From assembly GCF_012273515.2 (NCBI RefSeq), contig NZ_CP050975.2:6262001-6326000 (forward strand): a stretch of DNA of 64,000 nt, read 5' to 3'. Each line of letters begins with the position of its first letter. Position 1 is the stretch's first letter. Below the pieces are notes generated by a model that was not told the origin of the DNA, ran no database searches, and was given only the letters and a program-made list of their open reading frames with translations. The translations under genes and the position numbers were made by a program. The DNA comes from Streptomyces sp. RPA4-2. GTDB taxonomy: Bacteria; Actinomycetota; Actinomycetes; Streptomycetales; Streptomycetaceae. Shown one piece after another: positions 4,792 through 23,477 of the stretch.

Positions 4792-7167
4792 TCACTCGAC
4801 GACCCGCAGCAGCAGTACCGACCGGGCCGGCACCGTGATCGTCACCCCCGCACGATGGACCAACCCCGGTGACACGCCCTGCTCCTCCGCCGAGGTGTCG
4901 ACCACGACCTCGTAGCGGTGGGCCCACGGCGGCCCCGGCAGCACGAAGCCCGCCGGCCGGTCCCCGGCGTGCAGCACGGCGAGGAAGCTGTCGTCCACCA
5001 CCGGCGCTCCCCGCGCGTCCCGCCCGGGTATGTCCCGCCCCGACAGGTACATGCCCAGCGTCCCGGCGGGCGCGTACCAGTCGCGTTCCGTCATCTCCGC
5101 CCCGCGCGCGGTGAACCACGCCAGGTCCCGCAGCCCGTCCACGGAGTGCGCCCGGCCCGAGAAGAACGCCCGCCGCCGCAGCACCGGATGCCGGTGCCGC
5201 AGCGCGATCAGGCGGGACGTCAGATCGAACAGGGCCCGCCAGCCCGGCTCCTCCAGCAGGCTCCAGTCGACCCAGCTGATCTCGTTGTCCTGGCAGTACG
5301 CGTTGTTGCTGCCGCGCTGCGTCCGCCCGAACTCGTCCCCGGCGACCAGCATCGGCACCCCGGTGGACAGCAGCAGCGTGGTCAGCAGGTTCCGCAACTG
5401 CCGCCGCCGCAGGGCCCGTACGCGTTCCTCGTCCGTCTCCCCCTCCACCCCGCAGTTCCAGGCCCGGTTGTCGTCCGTGCCGTCCCGGTTCCCCTCCCCG
5501 TTGGCCTCGTTGTGCTTGCGCTCGTAGGAGACGAGGTCCCGCAGGGTGAAACCGTCGTGCGCGGTCACGAAGTTCACGGACGCGTACGGCCGCCGCCCGC
5601 CCCACGCGTACAGGTCGCTCGATCCCGACAGCCGGTACCCCAGATCCCGTACGTCGGGCAGCGCCCCCCGCCAGAAGTCCCGTACCGCGTTGCGGTACCG
5701 GTCGTTCCACTCCGTCCACAGCGGCGGGAAGGCCCCCACCTGGTAGCCGCCGGATCCCACGTCCCACGGTTCCGCGATCAGCTTCACCCGGCGCAGCACC
5801 GGATCCTGCGCGATGACGGCCAGGAACGGCGACAGCATGTCCACGTCGTGCATGGAGCGGGCCAGCGCCGCCGCCAGATCGAAACGGAAGCCGTCCACCC
5901 CCATCTCCGTCACCCAGTACCGCAGCGAGTCGGTGATCAGCCGCAGCACATGGGGCTGCACCACATGCAGCGTGTTCCCGCACCCGGTGTAGTCCGCGTA
6001 CCGCCGGGCGTCCGACTGGAGCCGGTAGTACCCCCGGTTGTCGATACCGCGCAGCGACAGCATCGGCCCCAGCTCGCCCGCCTCGGCGGTGTGGTTGTAG
6101 ACCACGTCGAGGATCACCTCGATGCCGGCGGCGTGCAGCGCCCGCACCATCCGCTTGAACTCGCCGACCTGCCCGCCCGTCGTCCCGGCGGCGGCGTACC
6201 CCGCGTGCGGGGCGAAGTAGCCGATCGAGTTGTAGCCCCAGTAGTTCTTCAGCCCCCGGCGCAGCAGATGGTCCTCGTGCGCGAACTGGTGCACCGGCAG
6301 CAGCTCCACGGCCGTGACGCCGAGCGCGACCAGGTGCTCGATCGCCGCGGGGTGCGCCAGCCCGGCGTAGGTGCCGCGCAGCTCCTCCGGAATCCCCGGG
6401 TGCAGACGGGTGAAACCCCGCACGTGCAGCTCGTAGATGACCGAGTCCGCCCACGGGGTCTTCGGACGGTGGTCGTCCGACCAGTCGTCGTCGTCCTGGA
6501 CGACGACGCCCTTGGGGACGTACGGCGCCGAGTCCCGGTCGTCCCGCACGGTGTCCGCGACGTGCTGCTGCGGCCAGTCGCGCACATGCCCGTACACCTC
6601 CGGCGGCAGGCTGAAGTCGCCGTCCACGGCGCGGGCGTACGGGTCCAGGAGCAGCTTCGCCGGGTTCCAGCGGGCGCCGGTCCACGGGTCCCAGCGGCCG
6701 TGCACGCGGTAGCCGTAGCGGCGGCCCGGCAGTACGCCGGGGACGAAGCCGTGCCAGATCTCGTGGGTCAGCTCGGTGAGCGGGACCCGGGTCTCGTGGG
6801 TCGCGCCGTCCCGTTCGTCGAAGAGACAGAGGTCGACGGCCTCCGCCCCGCCCGCCCACAGCGCGAAGTTGGTGCCCGCGACGCCGTCGGGACCGACCCG
6901 GAAGCGGGCCCCGAGCGGGGTCGGCGCGCCGGGCCACACGGCCACGGCGGGAGCCGGGCGCCTGGACCCGTTCACCAGGGGCGCGGGCAGCACGCCGTCG
7001 GGCAGGCGTTTCTCGCGCACTCCGCTCTCGGGCGCGTGTCCTTCCCGCACTCCGCCCTCGGGCGAGTGCCCTTCCCGCACTCCGCCCTCGGGCGCGCGTC
7101 CTTCCCGCGCTTCGCCGTCGGGGGCGCGCCCCTCCTGCACTGCCTCCTGCTCGGCTGCGCTCGACAC
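4792..7167 (-). CDS. glgX: Glycogen debranching enzyme GlgX (isoamylase type)
   Basis: A 791-residue GH13 enzyme that hydrolyses alpha-1,6 branch points in glycogen or limit dextrins in the cytoplasm. An N-terminal carbohydrate-binding/isoamylase domain (PTPLGARFRVGPDGVAGTNFA) precedes the barrel, which shows all four GH13 regions: DVVYNHT, DGFRFDLA with the nucleophile Asp, LIAEPWD with the acid Glu, and NFVTAHDGFTLRDLV. The GlgX subclass is supported by the full length and by WNCGVEGETDEERV and NNAYCQDNEISW. The first 75 residues are not part of the usual enzyme: residues 11-60 are five copies of a charged 10-residue repeat. It is convergent with the two-component operon. Confidence 0.95.
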   Translation of the reverse strand: MSSAAEQEAVQEGRAPDGEAREGRAPEGGVREGHSPEGGVREGHAPESGVREKRLPDGVLPAPLVNGSRRPAPAVAVWPGAPTPLGARFRVGPDGVAGTNFALWAGGAEAVDLCLFDERDGATHETRVPLTELTHEIWHGFVPGVLPGRRYGYRVHGRWDPWTGARWNPAKLLLDPYARAVDGDFSLPPEVYGHVRDWPQQHVADTVRDDRDSAPYVPKGVVVQDDDDWSDDHRPKTPWADSVIYELHVRGFTRLHPGIPEELRGTYAGLAHPAAIEHLVALGVTAVELLPVHQFAHEDHLLRRGLKNYWGYNSIGYFAPHAGYAAAGTTGGQVGEFKRMVRALHAAGIEVILDVVYNHTAEAGELGPMLSLRGIDNRGYYRLQSDARRYADYTGCGNTLHVVQPHVLRLITDSLRYWVTEMGVDGFRFDLAAALARSMHDVDMLSPFLAVIAQDPVLRRVKLIAEPWDVGSGGYQVGAFPPLWTEWNDRYRNAVRDFWRGALPDVRDLGYRLSGSSDLYAWGGRRPYASVNFVTAHDGFTLRDLVSYERKHNEANGEGNRDGTDDNRAWNCGVEGETDEERVRALRRRQLRNLLTTLLLSTGVPMLVAGDEFGRTQRGSNNAYCQDNEISWVDWSLLEEPGWRALFDLTSRLIALRHRHPVLRRRAFFSGRAHSVDGLRDLAWFTARGAEMTERDWYAPAGTLGMYLSGRDIPGRDARGAPVVDDSFLAVLHAGDRPAGFVLPGPPWAHRYEVVVDTSAEEQGVSPGLVHRAGVTITVPARSVLLLRVVE
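6988..7137 (-). repeat. 30-bp coding tandem repeat, five copies, at the GlgX N-terminus
   Basis: Five consecutive 10-codon units (QEGRAPDGEA, REGRAPEGGV, REGHSPEGGV, REGHAPESGV, REKRLPDGVL) lie at residues 11-60. The two central units are almost identical in DNA, suggesting recent expansion. Confidence 0.9.
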
Positions 7168-16141: not shown

Positions 16142-16699
16142 TCAGTCGACCGCGGCCCACTCGCGCAGCGCCGCCTTGCTGGAGAACTGCGCGACGTCCT
16201 TGTCCAGAGGGTTGTCGGTGTACTGATGGAAGCGCCACTTCGCCTTGATACGGGGCTCGCCCGCGGTCACGTAGTCGGCGATCCACAGACCGTCTCCCGC
16301 GTACGAGGTGGTGTCGACGTTGAGCCAGAAGTTGCGGTTCGTGTAGAGCAGGACCCGGTGGTCCGGCCTCAGTTCCTTCACCTTGCGCACGAAGCGGTCC
16401 TTCTCGGCGTTGCTGGCGTGGGTGCCGTCACCGGTGGTCTCCCAGTCGACGGCGAGCAGATCACCGGCCTTCTCCGGGGCCTTGCCGACGAAGTACTCGG
16501 CCTGGGCGGTGAGGTCGCCGGGCCACAGGAAGTGGTAGAAACCGACGACGCAGCCGCCGTCACGGGCCGTCTTCACCTGGGCCGTGAGCTTCGGATTGAC
16601 GTACGAACGACCCTCGGTCGCCTTGATGAAGACGAAGGAGAGCCCCTCGGTCGAGTAGGCGGACGACTGGTAGGCGCTGACGTCGATGCCGCGGAGCAT
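16142..16699 (-). CDS. Glycoside hydrolase family 25 (lysozyme-like) protein without signal peptide
   Basis: A 185-residue single GH25 domain starting at ATG 16699 behind GGAGGAG. The first catalytic-site Asp is in GIDVSAYQ at the extreme N-terminus, the central Asp-x-Glu pair is in LLAVDWETTGDG, and the fold closes with WIADYVTAGEPRIKAKWRFHQY. The family cleaves muramic acid-N-acetylglucosamine bonds in peptidoglycan. There is no signal peptide or cell-wall-binding domain and the fold begins at residue 2, so export by Sec is not expected; non-classical release, lysis, or an intracellular role are possibilities. Confidence 0.9.
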   Translation of the reverse strand: MLRGIDVSAYQSSAYSTEGLSFVFIKATEGRSYVNPKLTAQVKTARDGGCVVGFYHFLWPGDLTAQAEYFVGKAPEKAGDLLAVDWETTGDGTHASNAEKDRFVRKVKELRPDHRVLLYTNRNFWLNVDTTSYAGDGLWIADYVTAGEPRIKAKWRFHQYTDNPLDKDVAQFSSKAALREWAAVD

Positions 16700-17329: not shown

Positions 17330-17494
17330 GTGCGTACAGGCAGCGCCAGGGAGATGCGGCACCTGATCGGCCAGTTGACCGACGGGTTACGCCTGCCCGT
17401 TCCCTCGGACCCCGACGACGGCGCGTCCACGGACCGGACCCGGATCGCCGGCCGGATCGCCGCGTCACTGGGACAACGCCGGTCCAGGGTCTGA
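17330..17494 (+). CDS. Small 54-residue ORF with a TTA codon, coupled to the membrane protein gene
   Basis: GTG 17330 is preceded by GGGGAG at good spacing. The product is hydrophilic (VRTGSAREMRHLIGQLTDGL, then DRTRIAGRIAASLGQRRSRV) with no Cys or Trp, signal or membrane segment. Codon 20 is TTA (17387-17389), so translation should depend on the bldA tRNA. The stop lies four bases before the GTG of the MAB_1171c-type gene, which favours coupling. I do not recognise it. It may be the decayed N-terminus of the regulator/toxin component that often precedes such membrane proteins, or a real small regulator. Confidence 0.5.
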   Translation: MRTGSAREMRHLIGQLTDGLRLPVPSDPDDGASTDRTRIAGRIAASLGQRRSRV

Positions 17495-17497
17495 GCC

Positions 17498-18694
17498 GTG
17501 GGCGCCTCGACCTACTACATACCGGCGCTGGCCCTGTGGGCCGGCCTCGCCTCGAAGCTGCCCGACCTGGTGAGGTCCTGGCGCGACCCGCTGGTTCGGT
17601 GGGTCTGCTGGGTGATCTTCCTGGGGGGCGCGGGGTTCGCCTTCGCCGCCCCGCCCACCGTCGCCGCCGTGAACAGGACGAGCGGCATCCCGAATCTCGC
17701 CGCCCTGCTGGTCTACGCCGTCGTCAGCGCCTACAGCGCCTCCTGTCTGGTGCTCATCCTGCACTGGCGCGGAGGTCCGGCCGGCCATGTGCGCCGTCTC
17801 GCCCGGCGCTGGCAGATCGGCTACGCCGTCGTGATCGCCCTGTTGATCCTCCTGTTCGTCCTGGGGGACGCCCCGGTCGAGCGGCGGACGGACCTCGACA
17901 CCCACTACGCCACCTCGCCCTGGATCGGGCAGATGATCGTGCTGTATCTGCTCGGCCACATGACCGCCGCGATCGCCACCACGGTGCTGTGCTGGCGCTG
18001 GGCGATCCAGGTGCACGGATGGCTGCGGGCCGGTTTGTGGCTGCTCGTGGCCGGCTGGCTGCTCAACCTGTCCTTCAGCACGCTGAAGCTGACCGCGGTG
18101 ATGGCACGGTGGGCCGGCCGGGACTGGGACGTGCTGAGCACCGTCCTGGCGCCGGGCCTCGTGGGCCTGGCCGCCACCGTCGCCACCGTCGGCTTCACGC
18201 TGCCGCTGTACGGCCCGCGGCTGGTCGCGCTCTGGCGTGCGGTGGTGAGCTGGAGACGGCTCGGCCCCCTGTGGCGTGAACTCGCCGGCGCCTCTCCCGG
18301 CACCCCGCTCGCCGCGCCGATCCCCTGGTACTCGTCCTGCGCCGTGCGCCTCACCCGGCGTGAGGCCGGCATCCAGGACGGCTTGAACCTCGTCCGCCCG
18401 CACCTCGACGACCAGGTCCGTACCCACGCGCAGAGCCTGGCCCGAGCCGCGGGCCACACCGAGGAGGACGCCTTCCGCATCGGTCTCGCGGCGATGATCG
18501 CCGCCGCCGTCCGCTCCCACCGCGCCGACGCGTCCGCTGCCCCGGTGGACGTCGCGCAGAACACCGCGAGCTTCGCTTCGCGTGCCACCTTGGTGGGTGT
18601 GGCACGTGCGTTGCGCACGTCCCCCGTCGTCGTGGCGGCCCGTGCCGCCGCCGGGGTCCGCACGGCGGCGGATGACGAAAGAACCCCCCTGTGA
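17498..18694 (+). CDS. MAB_1171c-type multi-pass membrane protein (putative transporter/receptor)
   Basis: A 398-residue protein starting at GTG 17498. Seven to eight hydrophobic helices fill residues 1-245, including GASTYYIPALALWAGLASKL at the N-terminus, CWVIFLGGAGFAFAAPPTVA, ALLVYAVVSAYSASCLVLIL and WQIGYAVVIALLILLFVLGD. The cytoplasmic C-terminal domain (RREAGIQDGLNLVRPHLDD, then EEDAFRIGLAAMIAAAVRSH) fits the DUF6545-like region of MAB_1171c proteins. The biochemical role of this family is not established; in Streptomyces members sit near small regulators and isoprenoid or redox enzymes, as here. It is upstream of an FAD oxygenase and a polyprenyl synthase. Confidence 0.8.
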   Translation: MGASTYYIPALALWAGLASKLPDLVRSWRDPLVRWVCWVIFLGGAGFAFAAPPTVAAVNRTSGIPNLAALLVYAVVSAYSASCLVLILHWRGGPAGHVRRLARRWQIGYAVVIALLILLFVLGDAPVERRTDLDTHYATSPWIGQMIVLYLLGHMTAAIATTVLCWRWAIQVHGWLRAGLWLLVAGWLLNLSFSTLKLTAVMARWAGRDWDVLSTVLAPGLVGLAATVATVGFTLPLYGPRLVALWRAVVSWRRLGPLWRELAGASPGTPLAAPIPWYSSCAVRLTRREAGIQDGLNLVRPHLDDQVRTHAQSLARAAGHTEEDAFRIGLAAMIAAAVRSHRADASAAPVDVAQNTASFASRATLVGVARALRTSPVVVAARAAAGVRTAADDERTPL

Positions 18695-19396
18695 ACCCCG
18701 GCCCAGCTCACCGCCGCCGGGTCAGCCGCCGGGAGATCGCTCTCGGGGATGCTCGCAGGCGCGGTCACCCAGCGGCTCCGCGCAGCGCCGAGAGCGCCGT
18801 CGGCGTCCTCGGACGCCGGCCCGCCACCCCACGCCGTACACCGGGCCACGTTCGTGGCCGAAGCGGCGATGCCGGCAGCCGGCGTGCGGGCGTCCCGCAC
18901 GGGCGGCACCGAGCCCCCGGCGAGCGTCGGGACGCTGCGGTCCATGGCGGAACCGCATCCGATGGCCCGTCTGGCGGGCGCGCTCTCCACGTCACAGACC
19001 GTGGCGAAGCGCGCCGGCGGGCCGAGAACCGGATGACCACCACCCATGACTGACGTGCGGAGAGGCTCCGCCGTACACAGCGTGCGGTGGTGACCGGCGC
19101 GGCGCCGCGCCGGCTCCCGACCCGGTGAAGCCCGGCAGGCAGGTGTCCCGGGCCGCCGGACGGTGACGCGCGGCAACGGCGCCCCGCGGGAGATCGAACC
19201 GCCCTTCGGGTGGGAAGCCTTCGGCCGGACACGTTCGTCGCACCACCGTCGCGTGTCCCGCAACACCCCGGTGGCCGGCCGGCCTTGGACCACTCCGCTC
19301 GCAGCCGCGACACGACGTCGCGGATGATGCGGTGTGGTGTGCGGCCGGCGAGGTCCGCCGTCCGCTCCGTCCCTGCGACAGAAGAGAGTTCCGTAC
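18695..19396. other. Gap inside the MAB_1171c/isoprenoid cluster, possible decayed gene
   Basis: About 700 bases separate the membrane protein from the FAD enzyme. A G/C-biased frame from ATG 18749 to TGA 19036 could encode 95 residues (MLAGAVTQRLRAAPRAPSAS at the start) but shows no family motif and no good ribosome site. The rest shows no supported gene on either strand. The size and bias are compatible with remnants of a lost gene. Confidence 0.4.
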
Positions 19397-20791
19397 ATGC
19401 CCGACAGATCCGCTCCCCGCCGCACCGCCGTGGTCATCGGCGGGGGCATGACGGGCATGCTCGCGGCAGCCGTGCTCGCCGACCACGCCGACGTCACGAT
19501 CGTCGAGCGCGACCTCCTGCCGGACGGCCCGCGACCCCGCAAGGGGCTGCCGCAGGCCCGGCACGCCCACGTGTTGTGGTCCGGCGGGGTCAAAGCCCTC
19601 GAGGAACTCCTGCCGGGTGTCGTCGACCGGCTCGTCGGCCAGGGCGCACGGCGAAGCCGCATCATGAGCGACCTGGTGTCCAAAGCTCCGTCGGGCCAGT
19701 GGTTCCGCCGCTTCGGCGACGCCCGCCACATCAACCTTCTGTGCAGCCGCGACCTGCTCGATGCCGTGATCCGCGCCAGGGTGCTCGAAGACCGGCGCAT
19801 CTCCCTGCGGCAGCAGACCGAACTGGTGTCCCTGGAAGGCGACGCCGGACGCGTGTCCGGAGTCCGCATACGCGCGGCGGACACCCACAGCGCCCTTGCC
19901 GCCGATCTGGTCATCGACGCCGGCGGGCGTGGCAGCCGCGCCCCCGGCTGGCTGCGGGACCTGGGCCTTCCACCCGTGGCCGAGCGTACGGTCGACGCGG
20001 GCGTCGGCTACGCCAGCCGGATCTACCGCGCTCCCGGCACCACCGCCGACGGTTTCCCGATCGTCAACGTCCAGGCGGACCCCCGCCAGAACCCGGGCAG
20101 GGGCGGCATCATCACCCCCATCGAAGGCGGCCGCTGGCTGGTCACGCTCGCCGGAACCCGTGGGGGTCAACCCGGCCCCGGCAACGAGGACTTCGTTCCC
20201 TTCGCGCTCAAGCTGCCGCACCCCGTCATCGGTGAACTCCTCGCCGGCGCCGAGCCCGAGACGGACGTCGTCACCACCCGTAGCACGGCCAACAAGCGGC
20301 GCTACTACGAAAAGGCCGCCCGCTGGCCCGACGGCTTCGCCGTCCTCGGCGAGGCCGTCGCCGGCTACAACCCCGTCTACGGTCACGGACTGAGCGCCGC
20401 CGCACAGAGCGTCGTCGCCCTGCGCGACGTCCTGCGGCGGCAGGACCTTCGCGCCCCCGGCACGTCCCGGCGCATCCAAAAGGCCGCGGCCCGCCCGGTC
20501 GAGAACGCGTGGAGCCTGGCCGTGGGCCAGGACGTGTTCTACCCGGGCGCCAGTGAACAGCCCCCCACCCGGCTCGAAAGGAACCTCGCCGCCTTCGTCG
20601 ACAAGGCCGTCGACGCCGGCGCGCGCAACCCCCACGCCCTCCGCATCCTGCTGGACGTGATGAGCATGGAGAAACCGCCTGCCCGGCTGCTGATGCCCGA
20701 CATGCTCGCCCTGGTCTACCTCGGCCGGAAGAAGCCCCTTCTGGATGGGCCGCCCCTGACGGAGCACGAGCGCGCGGCCGCCACCGGCTGA
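19397..20791 (+). CDS. FAD-dependent monooxygenase/epoxidase-like oxidoreductase
   Basis: A 464-residue flavoprotein from ATG 19397 behind GAAGAGAG. The N-terminal dinucleotide motif is VVIGGGMTGMLAAAVLADHA, ending at Glu in TIVERD. It is followed by GLPQARHAHVLWSGG, the hallmark of a group of 2-polyprenyl-6-methoxyphenol-hydroxylase-like and squalene-epoxidase-like enzymes. The second FAD motif appears as FAVLGEAVAGYNPVYGHGLS, with Gly-Glu in place of Gly-Asp. Next to a polyprenyl synthase, the natural inference is oxidation of a prenyl chain or prenylated compound. There is no transmembrane segment, and the substrate is unknown. Confidence 0.85.
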   Translation: MPDRSAPRRTAVVIGGGMTGMLAAAVLADHADVTIVERDLLPDGPRPRKGLPQARHAHVLWSGGVKALEELLPGVVDRLVGQGARRSRIMSDLVSKAPSGQWFRRFGDARHINLLCSRDLLDAVIRARVLEDRRISLRQQTELVSLEGDAGRVSGVRIRAADTHSALAADLVIDAGGRGSRAPGWLRDLGLPPVAERTVDAGVGYASRIYRAPGTTADGFPIVNVQADPRQNPGRGGIITPIEGGRWLVTLAGTRGGQPGPGNEDFVPFALKLPHPVIGELLAGAEPETDVVTTRSTANKRRYYEKAARWPDGFAVLGEAVAGYNPVYGHGLSAAAQSVVALRDVLRRQDLRAPGTSRRIQKAAARPVENAWSLAVGQDVFYPGASEQPPTRLERNLAAFVDKAVDAGARNPHALRILLDVMSMEKPPARLLMPDMLALVYLGRKKPLLDGPPLTEHERAAATG

Positions 20792-20896
20792 AGCCGTTCC
20801 CGCCGGGCCGCCGTCGCGTATTCCGTGCCCCGGACGACCCGGCGCCCGCGTCCGGAACGGCCCGTTGAAATCCACCACGAAGACACGGAACAGCAC

Positions 20897-21886
20897 ATGA
20901 CTCCCGCATCCTATTTGGACCTCCATCAGGAATTCTCCTCGGAAATAGAGGAGGAAATAGAGTCCATCCTTGAACGGCTCGGCCCGTCGGCGGAATCCGT
21001 CAGGAGCGTCGTCGCGGAACTCCTGTGCCACCAGAAGATGAAATACCCTCTTTCGGTGCTGCCGCTGGTCGTGCACGGCGTAGAGACGGGCAGCCCCGGA
21101 CCCGCCGTCCCGCTGTCCGCCGTGCACGTGCTGTGGTGGACCTCGGCCTGCTATCTCGACGATCTGGCGGACGGGCACGGCGCGCACACGCCCGCCGGAC
21201 TCACCCCGCACGAAGCACTTCTGGCGGCCGTGGTCACGGGACACGTGCTCTCGCTGAAGGCGATCGGCTCGCGACGGATCCCGGAGCCGGTCCGCGGCGC
21301 TTTGACGGACGAAGTCCTCGACTGCGGGATCACTGCCGCCCAGGGGCAGCTGGGCGACATGCGCGCAGACGTGGGCAACGTGTCCCGGAACTCGGTCGTC
21401 ACGGCGTACCGGGAGAAATCCGGCGCCCCCTTCGGCATGATCACCGCGATGGCCGCGATACTCGCGGGCGCGGAGGCCGAGCGGATCGATCTGTGGCGGG
21501 AGTTCGGCTCCGTATTCGGAATTCTGTGGCAGATGTTCAATGACCAGGAGGACATCGCCTCCGGACGGAACGAAGATCTGCTGAACGGCACCGTGACCTA
21601 TCTTTTCGCCTGCGCTCTGGAAGACGCGGCGCCCGATATCAGGCCCCGCATCCTGGACCTGCACGCCGGTGCGAGAACATCGGCCGCGTCACGATCGGCC
21701 CTGACCGGCCTGCTCCTCACCCCCGCCGTTCTCGACCGCTACGAGGACGACATCCACAAGTTCCGTGACGAGGCGCACCGCATCCTCGGCGACCTCGGCG
21801 GCGACGAGAGCCACCTGCCCGTTCTCCGGCAACTCGTGGACCAGACGTCCCGAATGCTGGTGCGCCCGGAGGACACCGCCGGATGA
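20897..21886 (+). CDS. Polyprenyl synthase family protein (trans-isoprenyl diphosphate synthase)
   Basis: A 329-residue all-helical enzyme from ATG 20897. The first Asp-rich motif is DDLAD (residues 88-92) in WWTSACYLDDLADGHG. The second is degenerate: NDQED (215-219) in WQMFNDQEDIASG, where the first Asp is Asn. The segment TAYREKSGAPFGMITAMAAI carries the Lys and small residues typical of the middle of the fold. These enzymes condense IPP with allylic diphosphates to make C10-C20 or longer chains; ComQ-like members instead prenylate peptides. Product length cannot be judged. It lies 105 bases after the FAD enzyme, so the two are probably co-transcribed. Confidence 0.85.
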   Translation: MTPASYLDLHQEFSSEIEEEIESILERLGPSAESVRSVVAELLCHQKMKYPLSVLPLVVHGVETGSPGPAVPLSAVHVLWWTSACYLDDLADGHGAHTPAGLTPHEALLAAVVTGHVLSLKAIGSRRIPEPVRGALTDEVLDCGITAAQGQLGDMRADVGNVSRNSVVTAYREKSGAPFGMITAMAAILAGAEAERIDLWREFGSVFGILWQMFNDQEDIASGRNEDLLNGTVTYLFACALEDAAPDIRPRILDLHAGARTSAASRSALTGLLLTPAVLDRYEDDIHKFRDEAHRILGDLGGDESHLPVLRQLVDQTSRMLVRPEDTAG

Positions 21887-22109: not shown

Positions 22110-23477
22110 TCAGCACTCGATGATGTTGACCGCCAGCCCGCCCCGCGCCGTCTCCTTGTACTTGACGCTCATGTCCGCGCCGGTCTCCTTCATGGTCTTG
22201 ATGACCTTGTCGAGGGAGACCTTGTGGGAGCCGTCGCCGCGCATCGCCATCTTCGCGGCGGTGACCGCCTTGACCGCGGCCATGCCGTTGCGCTCGATGC
22301 AGGGGATCTGGACCAGACCGCCGACCGGGTCGCAGGTGAGGCCGAGGTTGTGTTCCATGCCGATCTCCGCGGCGTTCTCGACCTGCTCGGGGGAGCCGCC
22401 CAGTACCTCGGCGAGGGCGCCCGCCGCCATCGAGCAGGCGGAGCCGACCTCGCCCTGGCAGCCGACCTCGGCGCCCGAGATGGACGCGTTCTCCTTGAAG
22501 AGCATGCCGATCGCGCCCGCGGCCAGCAGGAAGCGGACCACGCCGTCCTCGTCCGCGCCGGGGACGAAGTTGATGTAGTAGTGCAGCACCGCGGGGATGA
22601 TGCCCGCGGCCCCGTTGGTGGGGGCGGTGACGACCCGGCCACCGGCCGCGTTCTCCTCGTTGACCGCCATCGCGTAGAGGGTGATCCACTCCATCGCGTG
22701 CGCCAGGGGGTCGCCCTCGGCGCGCAGCTGGCGGGCCGAGACGGCGGCGCGGCGGCGCACCCGCAGGCCGCCGGGCAGGATGCCCTCACGGGACATGCCG
22801 CGCGACACGCAGGCCTGCATCACACCCCAGATGGCGAGAAGGCCCTCACGGATCTCGTCCTCGGTGCGCCAGGCGCGCTCGTTCTCCAGCATCAGCGCGG
22901 AGATCGACAGCCCGGTCTCCTTGGTCAGCCGCAGCAGCTCGTCGCCCGTGCGGAAGGGGTATTTCAGGACGGTGTCGTCCAGCTTGATGCGATCCTCGCC
23001 CACCGCGTCCTCGTCGACCACGAAGCCGCCGCCGACGGAGTAGTACGTCTTCTCCAGCACGAGTTCGCCGGAGGCGCCGTACGCGAAGATCGTCATGCCG
23101 TTCGCGTGGTACGGCAGCGCCTTGCGCCGGTGCAGGACCAGGTCGTCGTCGAAGGAGAAGGGGATCTCCCGCTCGCCGAGCAGGCTGATGCGGCCCGAGG
23201 CCTTGATCTCCTCGACGCGGTCGTCGGCCCCCTCCACGTCCACCGTCCGCGGCGAGGCGCCCTCCAGGCCGAGCAGCACCGCCTTCGGGGTGCCGTGCCC
23301 GTGGCCGGTCGCGCCCAGTGAGCCGTACAGCTCGGCCCGGACGGAGGCCACGGCGGGCAGCAGGTCCTCGTTGCGCAGCCGGTGGGCGAACATCCGGGCC
23401 GCGCGCATCGGGCCCACCGTGTGGGAGCTGGACGGGCCTATGCCGATCGAGAACAGGTCGAAGACCGAGATGGCCAC
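22110..23477 (-). CDS. sdaA: L-serine ammonia-lyase, iron-sulfur type, single chain
   Basis: A 455-residue enzyme converting L-serine to pyruvate and ammonia using a [4Fe-4S] cluster. Start is GTG 23477 with AGGAG upstream (protein begins [20 protein letters not shown]). The beta (regulatory) half carries [20 protein letters not shown]. The alpha half contains the cluster region, with cysteines in [26 protein letters not shown] and QIPCIERNG. It is the last gene of a same-strand run after glyA; the 100-base gap may hold its own promoter. It consumes the serine that glyA and the glycine cleavage proteins make or balance. Confidence 0.96.

Follow-up and report, generated by a model that had tools for sequence, protein, structure and literature searches.

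A MAB_1171c locus of Streptomyces sp. RPA4-2 as a probable reduced descendant of a receptor–protease–repressor–enzyme cassette

We analyzed a 64-kb stretch (hereafter the window) of the 9.86-Mb chromosome of Streptomyces sp. RPA4-2, where positions 17330–21886 contain four co-directional open reading frames (ORFs). A sequence-only reading had described these as a TTA-containing small ORF, a MAB_1171c membrane protein, an epoxidase-like flavoenzyme, and a prenyl synthase, and all four were present where it had placed them. Below, MAB denotes the MAB_1171c protein, FAD the flavoenzyme, PPS the prenyl synthase homologue, and L-numbers the surveyed loci. With a little better than even confidence, we read the block as a stripped descendant of a receptor–protease–repressor–enzyme cassette in which both enzymes were kept and likely make an epoxidised prenyl compound. 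Read directly from the sequences are the cassette and its gene order, the in-frame loss of a peptidase core, the remnant of a second MAB gene, and the intact frames of MAB, epoxidase, and PPS. The features of the block and its flanks are:

17330–17494, + strand: ImmA/IrrE-like peptidase gene remnant, 54 aa (first ~29 and last ~24 residues)
17498–18694, + strand: MAB_1171c/DUF6545 membrane protein, putative receptor, 398 aa (NF042915, DUF6545)
18743–19030, + strand: C-terminal (DUF6545) remnant of a second MAB_1171c copy (matches to L158, L308, and L303)
19397 (ATG)–20791, + strand: flavin-dependent epoxidase of the Lsd18/MonCI type, 464 aa (homology to Lsd18)
20897–21886, + strand: non-canonical enzyme of the isoprenyl diphosphate synthase (IDS) fold, the PPS, 329 aa (PF00348; DDLAD, NDQED)
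16142–16699, opposite strand: GH25 gene, left flank of the four-ORF block
22110–23477, opposite strand: serine dehydratase gene, right flank of the four-ORF block

A conserved peptidase–MAB–enzyme unit

Gene order. The conserved actinomycete unit is (XRE-)peptidase–MAB–one variable enzyme, which differs from the MAB–flavoenzyme–prenyl synthase unit of the sequence-only reading. We surveyed 102 MAB loci, two from the window's genome and 100 from other Streptomyces picked non-randomly down a ranked list. Nine were dropped because the ORF caller or profile missed their MAB, and the other 93 yielded 104 MAB genes. A small gene with an HExxH motif was the first gene upstream of MAB in 83/104 cases and the second in 8/104, compared with an HExxH upstream neighbor for 2/399 other genes; in one case the first upstream gene was another MAB. 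The peptidase and MAB reading frames overlapped in 52 of the 83. An intact HExxH peptidase thus lies upstream of 91/104 MAB genes, while the window has only the two ends of one. HExxH itself was the basis for choosing the 84 peptidases, but Arg127 and a distal Glu135 were not, and both were invariant in all 60 that were aligned. Genes preceding the peptidase (n = 47) matched HTH_3 (25) and HTH_31 (10), with some possibly matching both. In other actinomycete genera, 13/15 loci had an HExxH string in any frame of the 1 kb that precedes MAB (a frame count without a control), and in eight of these it belonged to a called small gene directly before MAB.

Downstream enzymes. Among the first proteins of ≥150 aa encoded after MAB (n = 70), 13 were P450s and 13 matched FAD_binding_3, followed by SDR (7), amidase (4), amidohydrolase (4), and aldo/keto reductase (2). 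The rest comprised other, overlapping FAD models, HTH_3 (2), single families, and proteins unmatched at E 1e-5; two of the 70 are peptidases that belong to the next cassette (L130:7396–8007 and L159:5215–5697). The SDR matches probably fall in one MAB subfamily (L240, L241, L243, L247, L249, and L250), whose downstream gene encodes 258–280 aa and which also has a gene for 811–840 aa upstream of the peptidase. Many flavoenzyme cassettes carry a 73–75-aa protein after the flavoenzyme (L071:13000–13221 and a further 12 loci from the same cluster). The one scanned had no Pfam match, 0/18 contained TTA, and none was seen in the window. In L107:4113–5156, L160:2721–3764, and L050:11531–12574, the same site beside the flavoenzyme is taken, on the opposite strand, by a gene for 347 aa whose product looks by eye like an alpha/beta hydrolase (GHSLGGG).

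Relation to known systems. ImmA/IrrE–XRE switches such as IrrE–DdrO (PMC7907104) likewise place a small HExxH peptidase gene beside a helix-turn-helix (HTH) gene, but the cassette adds a seven-helix DUF6545 protein and a variable enzyme to the operon, and the window has lost the peptidase core and the HTH gene. The BlaR1/MecR1 sensor-proteases combine a membrane sensor, a zinc protease, and a repressor in one logic. The same logic is proposed here, except that sensor and protease are separate genes and the sensor has seven helices. ImmA–ImmR and CapP–CapH are further switches of the ImmA/IrrE–XRE type. Peptidase–XRE pairs are already known, and what is new is their combination with a receptor-like protein and an enzyme that varies from cassette to cassette; no description of the cassette was among the matches listed in our literature searches, whose coverage mostly excluded subscription journals. 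PADLOC profiles gave no match for MAB, FAD, PPS, or the one peptidase scanned, and four matches (RmrA three times and capH, E about 5e-4 to 7e-4) for one XRE protein; because these were weak and confined to the HTH part, we rejected an anti-phage defense system.

The membrane protein. The window MAB belongs to family NF042915 (151.2 bits, cut-off 100) and matches DUF6545 at residues 246–373 (62.3 bits, cut-off 24.4). From a structural model and the charge pattern it is predicted to be an N-out/C-in seven-helix protein with a cytosolic helical domain, in keeping with the membrane protein with a large cytosolic domain, a possible sensor, noted from the sequence alone. The model may resemble G protein-coupled receptors (GPCRs), and we do not claim homology. 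The set used for conservation in FAD-linked MAB proteins includes L030 and L158, both of which lack a flavoenzyme. The family is common in Streptomyces (48/61 genomes, 158 matches summed over the table) and sparser across the class (62/296 genomes, 41 above the cut-off, in 24/114 genera), with three genes in the window's genome, yet it has no settled role. DUF6545 was named nowhere in the literature searched, mostly outside subscription journals. NCBI calls NF042915 a "MAB_1171c family putative transporter", and in PMC8707978, the one paper in the literature searched that names MAB_1171c, a knock-out in Mycobacterium abscessus cut biofilm mass roughly in half, a result its authors interpret as export. 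The predicted bundle of seven helices, its cytosolic domain, and the coupling to peptidase and HTH genes speak against transport, a role we consider quite improbable, and we propose that this member of the family is instead a receptor.

Losses and retained genes in the window

The small ORF. The 54-aa ORF starts with GTG, has GGGGAG 4 nt upstream, and contains one in-frame TTA at codon 20 (17387–17389). Its two ends match those of a 182–188-aa protein encoded directly before MAB in relatives, with 79% identity over 29 aa to L303 for the N-terminal part and 72% over 25 aa to L304 for the C-terminal part. None of 2000 shuffles reached the score of either end against any of four relatives. L303, the locus with the nearest flavoenzyme, has a 188-aa peptidase gene with ends like the window ORF and HEVWH inside, while HExxH is absent from the window ORF. 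Because both ends match an intact peptidase, the ORF is the same gene after in-frame loss of about 134 codons, including the catalytic core. The TTA codon reported earlier is thus present, but in a deletion remnant and not in a separate gene of its own kind. A search for the ORF in other strains returned one match, 98% identical and possibly the window's own genome; the genomes reached did not include the relatives with 85–88% identical PPS, such as Streptomyces sp. NBC_01571 and S. fagopyri. We also rejected peptide prenylation of the ComX/ComQ type, as the small ORF lacks Trp and derives from a peptidase gene. A second, separate stripping may be represented by L307:5938–7626, where an XRE gene is followed by a segment matching the peptidase's N-terminal 29 aa and then by a flavoenzyme (82% identity); neither ORF calling nor matching placed a MAB between these two.

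The second MAB. The 0.7-kb gap between MAB and the flavoenzyme contained no assignable intact gene, but one frame matched the DUF6545 end of the second MAB of L158 (41% over 86 aa, E 0.002), L308 (52% over 66 aa), and L303 (58% over 33 aa). The near flavoenzyme relatives L303, L304, L305, L308, and L309 (77–85% identity) have the order peptidase–MAB–MAB–FAD. By this comparison the window reads as the same arrangement minus the peptidase core and the second MAB, without XRE, and with PPS added. The variable enzyme downstream of its MAB is the flavoenzyme, with the MAB remnant in between.

The flavoenzyme. The best solved relatives of the window flavoenzyme were Lsd18/LasC (1.4e-113) and MonCI (1.2e-108), and the Lsd18 alignment spanned residues 8–460, which bears out the earlier description as epoxidase-like. 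Using residue roles assigned in PMC12144862, the cofactor contacts Arg51 and His71 and the pocket residues Ala70, Trp74, Tyr218, and Val342 of Lsd18 were kept, while Ile72 was replaced by Val, Val252 by Ile, and His239 by Gln. Gln at the His239 position was common to 17/17 rows of the family. Unlike the polyether epoxidases Lsd18/LasC and MonCI, with which it shares near-full-length homology, the contacts, and most of the pocket, the window enzyme sits in a regulatory cassette. Lsd18 is reported to convert farnesyl acetate to a bisepoxide (PMC12144862), so by analogy an isoprenoid substrate is plausible for the window enzyme.

Window-type flavoenzymes (E 1e-150 or better) occurred in 68 of 392 genomes. 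We fetched 40, of which 38 gave a flavoenzyme ORF and two gave none; the window and G169 (L193), where PPS stands next to the flavoenzyme, are not among the 38. MAB was directly upstream on the same strand in 32/38. The pairing is far beyond chance, and the flavoenzyme belongs to the cassette. The proposal that the gene order could be coincidental therefore fails for MAB and the flavoenzyme. In L306:5011–9590 the flavoenzyme is present in three tandem copies, one matched as two pieces.

Selection. The flavoenzyme Ka/Ks between the window and L303 (85% identity) was 0.19, the same as between L303 and L308, and PPS had Ka 0.177 and Ks 0.723 to L193. These low values suggest that both genes are kept under constraint. 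The losses of the peptidase core, XRE, and the second MAB would also fit a decaying locus without present function, in which FAD and PPS survive by chance. In the same direction, the Ka/Ks of the first MAB was 0.56–0.58 from the window to L303 and L308, compared with 0.24 between L303 and L308. At matched divergence, however, the window MAB gave 0.40 to L310 and intact pairs gave 0.41–0.42, so we do not claim relaxed selection on this gene. With the flavoenzyme constrained as in intact cassettes and PPS conserved at 85–88% identity in six cluster representatives from other Streptomyces, decay seems clearly unlikely.

The prenyl synthase homologue

Motifs. The window PPS matched PF00348 (33.3 bits) and has the overall IDS fold, with DDLAD at residues 88–92 and NDQED at 215–219. 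We compared 66 distinct PPS relatives with the four canonical IDS of the window's genome. The degenerate second Asp motif noted earlier turned out to be a trait of the whole family, as NDxxD occupied the second motif in 66/66 PPS and 0/4 canonical IDS. GKxxR[PQ] was found in 0/66 and 4/4, and RR after the first DDxxD in 1/66 and 4/4, respectively. The first DDxxD and K[ST]G are kept as in trans-isoprenyl diphosphate synthases. IDS-like terpene synthases of Melampsora and an insect, compared here by description and not by sequence, also lack the arginine of the GGKRxRP region, a change that went with loss of coupling there (PMC7484799). PPS differs in being bacterial and in having NDxxD instead of the NDxxSxxxE triad. 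The window PPS reads NDQEDIASG at this position and a triad-like string occurred anywhere in 3/66, though the same source reports the triad as not strictly needed. From its motifs, PPS probably does not elongate with isopentenyl diphosphate (IPP), and may be terpene-synthase-like or transfer a prenyl group to another acceptor. The four canonical IDS genes elsewhere in the genome, putative by motifs, make a primary quinone or carotenoid role unlikely, in agreement with the non-primary role suggested before. We also rejected the Family 2 encapsulin cargo prenyl transferase (NF041169), for which PPS scored 32.5 bits against a cut-off of 450. A distant PPS subfamily (L019–L025, 35–42% identity), also from Streptomyces, had LWWRAAN before DDxxD and ND as the second motif in the three members inspected.

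Occurrence. PPS was within four genes of the flavoenzyme in 0/38 fetched loci, or 2/40 when the window and L193 are added, and on this basis PPS appears to be an accessory that joined MAB cassettes in a few lineages. The survey missed the ~50% identical flavoenzymes of L029-type loci, many of which have PPS nearby on the opposite strand. In a tree of the 66 distinct PPS, MAB was within 5 kb in 19, which fell in two clades: the first with the window, L071, and L030 (without FAD), and the second with L029 and others in a convergent arrangement. In the remaining 47/66, MAB was absent from these 5 kb; for three members of the second clade among them (L037, L052, and L057) the sequence was short or cut. 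The tree omits L167 (script), L211 (PPS cut to 142 aa), L027 and L073 (no PPS ORF >250 aa called), and identical copies. Linked loci outside the tree are L167/L211 and L027; in the last, PPS is immediately followed by MAB and a gene matching the peptidase profile. Chance proximity of PPS and MAB is about 0.3%, estimated from the three MAB genes in the 9.86-Mb chromosome; compared with 19/66, the link is real but occasional. Coincidence is thus a poor account here too, although the association is confined to few lineages.

On the linear plasmid pSSP121038, L167:3988–8879 combines MAB and PPS with an HTH gene and a HETYH protein of 161 aa, annotated as "toxin-antitoxin system, toxin component", and transposase and integrase genes are near. 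L211 has the same four genes together. L030:7466–13983 has two facing MAB groups with PPS between them and no flavoenzyme.

Three-gene readings. The sequence-only reading envisaged a dedicated system of MAB, FAD, and PPS, with a prenyl-derived signal sensed or exported by MAB. The three genes are co-directional in the window and L071, PPS lies near MAB in 16 further linked loci, mostly on the opposite strand and with a flavoenzyme (except L030), and the Lsd18 activity on farnesyl acetate would suit such a product. As a generally conserved system of three families, it did not survive the co-occurrence check that it had itself proposed: PPS was beside only 2/40 window-type flavoenzymes, and most PPS loci lacked MAB nearby. 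We consider this version doubtful, while its sensor-like MAB, epoxidase type, non-primary PPS, and TTA-linked timing (below) are supported.

Fungal indole-diterpene pathways combine an IDS-fold prenyltransferase, an FAD epoxidase, and a membrane cyclase, and a meroterpenoid trio of this type, with MAB as the cyclase, would account for the same three gene kinds and for the loss of IPP-site motifs in PPS. The IDS-fold entry "Prenyltransferase Ord1" (9v4g) was among the structural relatives of PPS but was not the nearest; since octaprenyl and nonaprenyl synthases outscored it in the profile search, we claim no special kinship. MAB accompanies peptidase genes and P450, amidase, or amidohydrolase genes, and 38/38 surveyed flavoenzyme loci had no PPS nearby, which makes the trio very improbable. 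The window was also said to lack a terpene cyclase or P450. No P450 heme motif occurred in any frame of the 64 kb, tested by regular expression only, and rough expressions for terpene cyclases on 56 window ORFs gave one DxDD match (ORF 4792–7050), so the P450 part holds at that level and the cyclase part is qualified. A promoter and terminator scan of the locus found none; terminators were fewer than in shuffles, and the scan was uninformative.

Proposed mechanism and TTA codons

Mechanism. In the intact cassette, MAB would bind a small, probably lipophilic molecule and, via its cytosolic DUF6545 domain, would let the peptidase cleave the XRE repressor, as IrrE cleaves the repressor DdrO in Deinococcus (PMC7907104). 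Cleavage would lead to expression of an enzyme that makes or destroys the MAB ligand, and in the FAD version a polyene or isoprenoid chain would be epoxidised by this enzyme. Protease and regulator have been lost in the window and an IDS-fold enzyme was added downstream, whose product may serve as the flavoenzyme substrate. Given these changes, the most likely output would be an epoxidised prenyl compound with the original feedback control gone. If this is true, the receptor–protease–repressor–enzyme cassette with its interchangeable enzymes would be a signaling device of general use in bacteria and would give access to small-molecule signals not yet known. The PPS enzymes beside it are candidate members of a terpenoid pathway class that may escape rule-based mining.

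Several points weigh against the stripped-cassette reading. The switch mechanism rests on analogy with IrrE–DdrO, and only 20/60 peptidases reached Pfam M78 (IrrE) at E 0.01. Twelve of the 104 MAB genes had neither an HExxH gene nor a MAB within two places upstream, although in five of these loci (L129, L131, L132, L133, and L135) the peptidase pair was located downstream. The likeness of MAB to GPCRs did not reach a Foldseek E-value <0.1, and helical bundles easily score high. Among the 19 linked loci, PPS and FAD were co-oriented only in the window and L071. The window itself is without both genes that the switch needs, and a complete paralogous XRE–peptidase–MAB–FAD cassette (L107) is present elsewhere in the genome, followed, after one opposite-strand gene, by a gene of the 73-aa type.

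TTA codons. The small ORF's TTA had been taken as a sign of developmental timing. TTA was enriched in the peptidase genes (35/138 versus 9/743 like-length genes of the same loci) and the PPS genes (12/66 versus 19/424), and the enrichment held after weighting clusters at 70% identity (p 1.7e-4 and 2.1e-3, respectively). There was no enrichment in FAD (1/77) or XRE (1/52). Sixteen peptidase TTA codons were at one site, five at another, and the remainder elsewhere, while those of PPS were at many codons, which implies repeated origins. Recurrent TTA in both families fits the suggested timing, which could therefore be through bldA. A bolder version, which we hold only speculatively and regard as rather unlikely in full, is that MAB_1171c proteins are bacterial GPCR-like receptors acting via regulated proteolysis, that the hormone of the FAD version is an epoxidised isoprenoid or polyene under bldA timing, and that the window shed the protease and repressor and gained a terpene-synthase-like IDS enzyme.

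TTA enrichment is more typical of late secondary metabolism, and this bears on another explanation, a stress or detoxification cassette in which MAB senses a toxic lipophile, the variable enzyme degrades it, and PPS is incidental. The downstream enzyme classes are, we infer, typical of xenobiotic turnover, PPS is rare beside window-type flavoenzymes, and the IrrE–DdrO switch serves a stress response (PMC7907104). Set against this are the TTA pattern, the fact that the closest solved structures to the flavoenzyme are those of polyether epoxidases from biosynthesis, and the joining of PPS to MAB cassettes in two clades as well as in L167/L211 and L027. We consider detoxification unlikely, but an explanation to be taken seriously beside the stripped cassette. 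In the window, the TTA within the remnant ORF could still control MAB synthesis through translational coupling.

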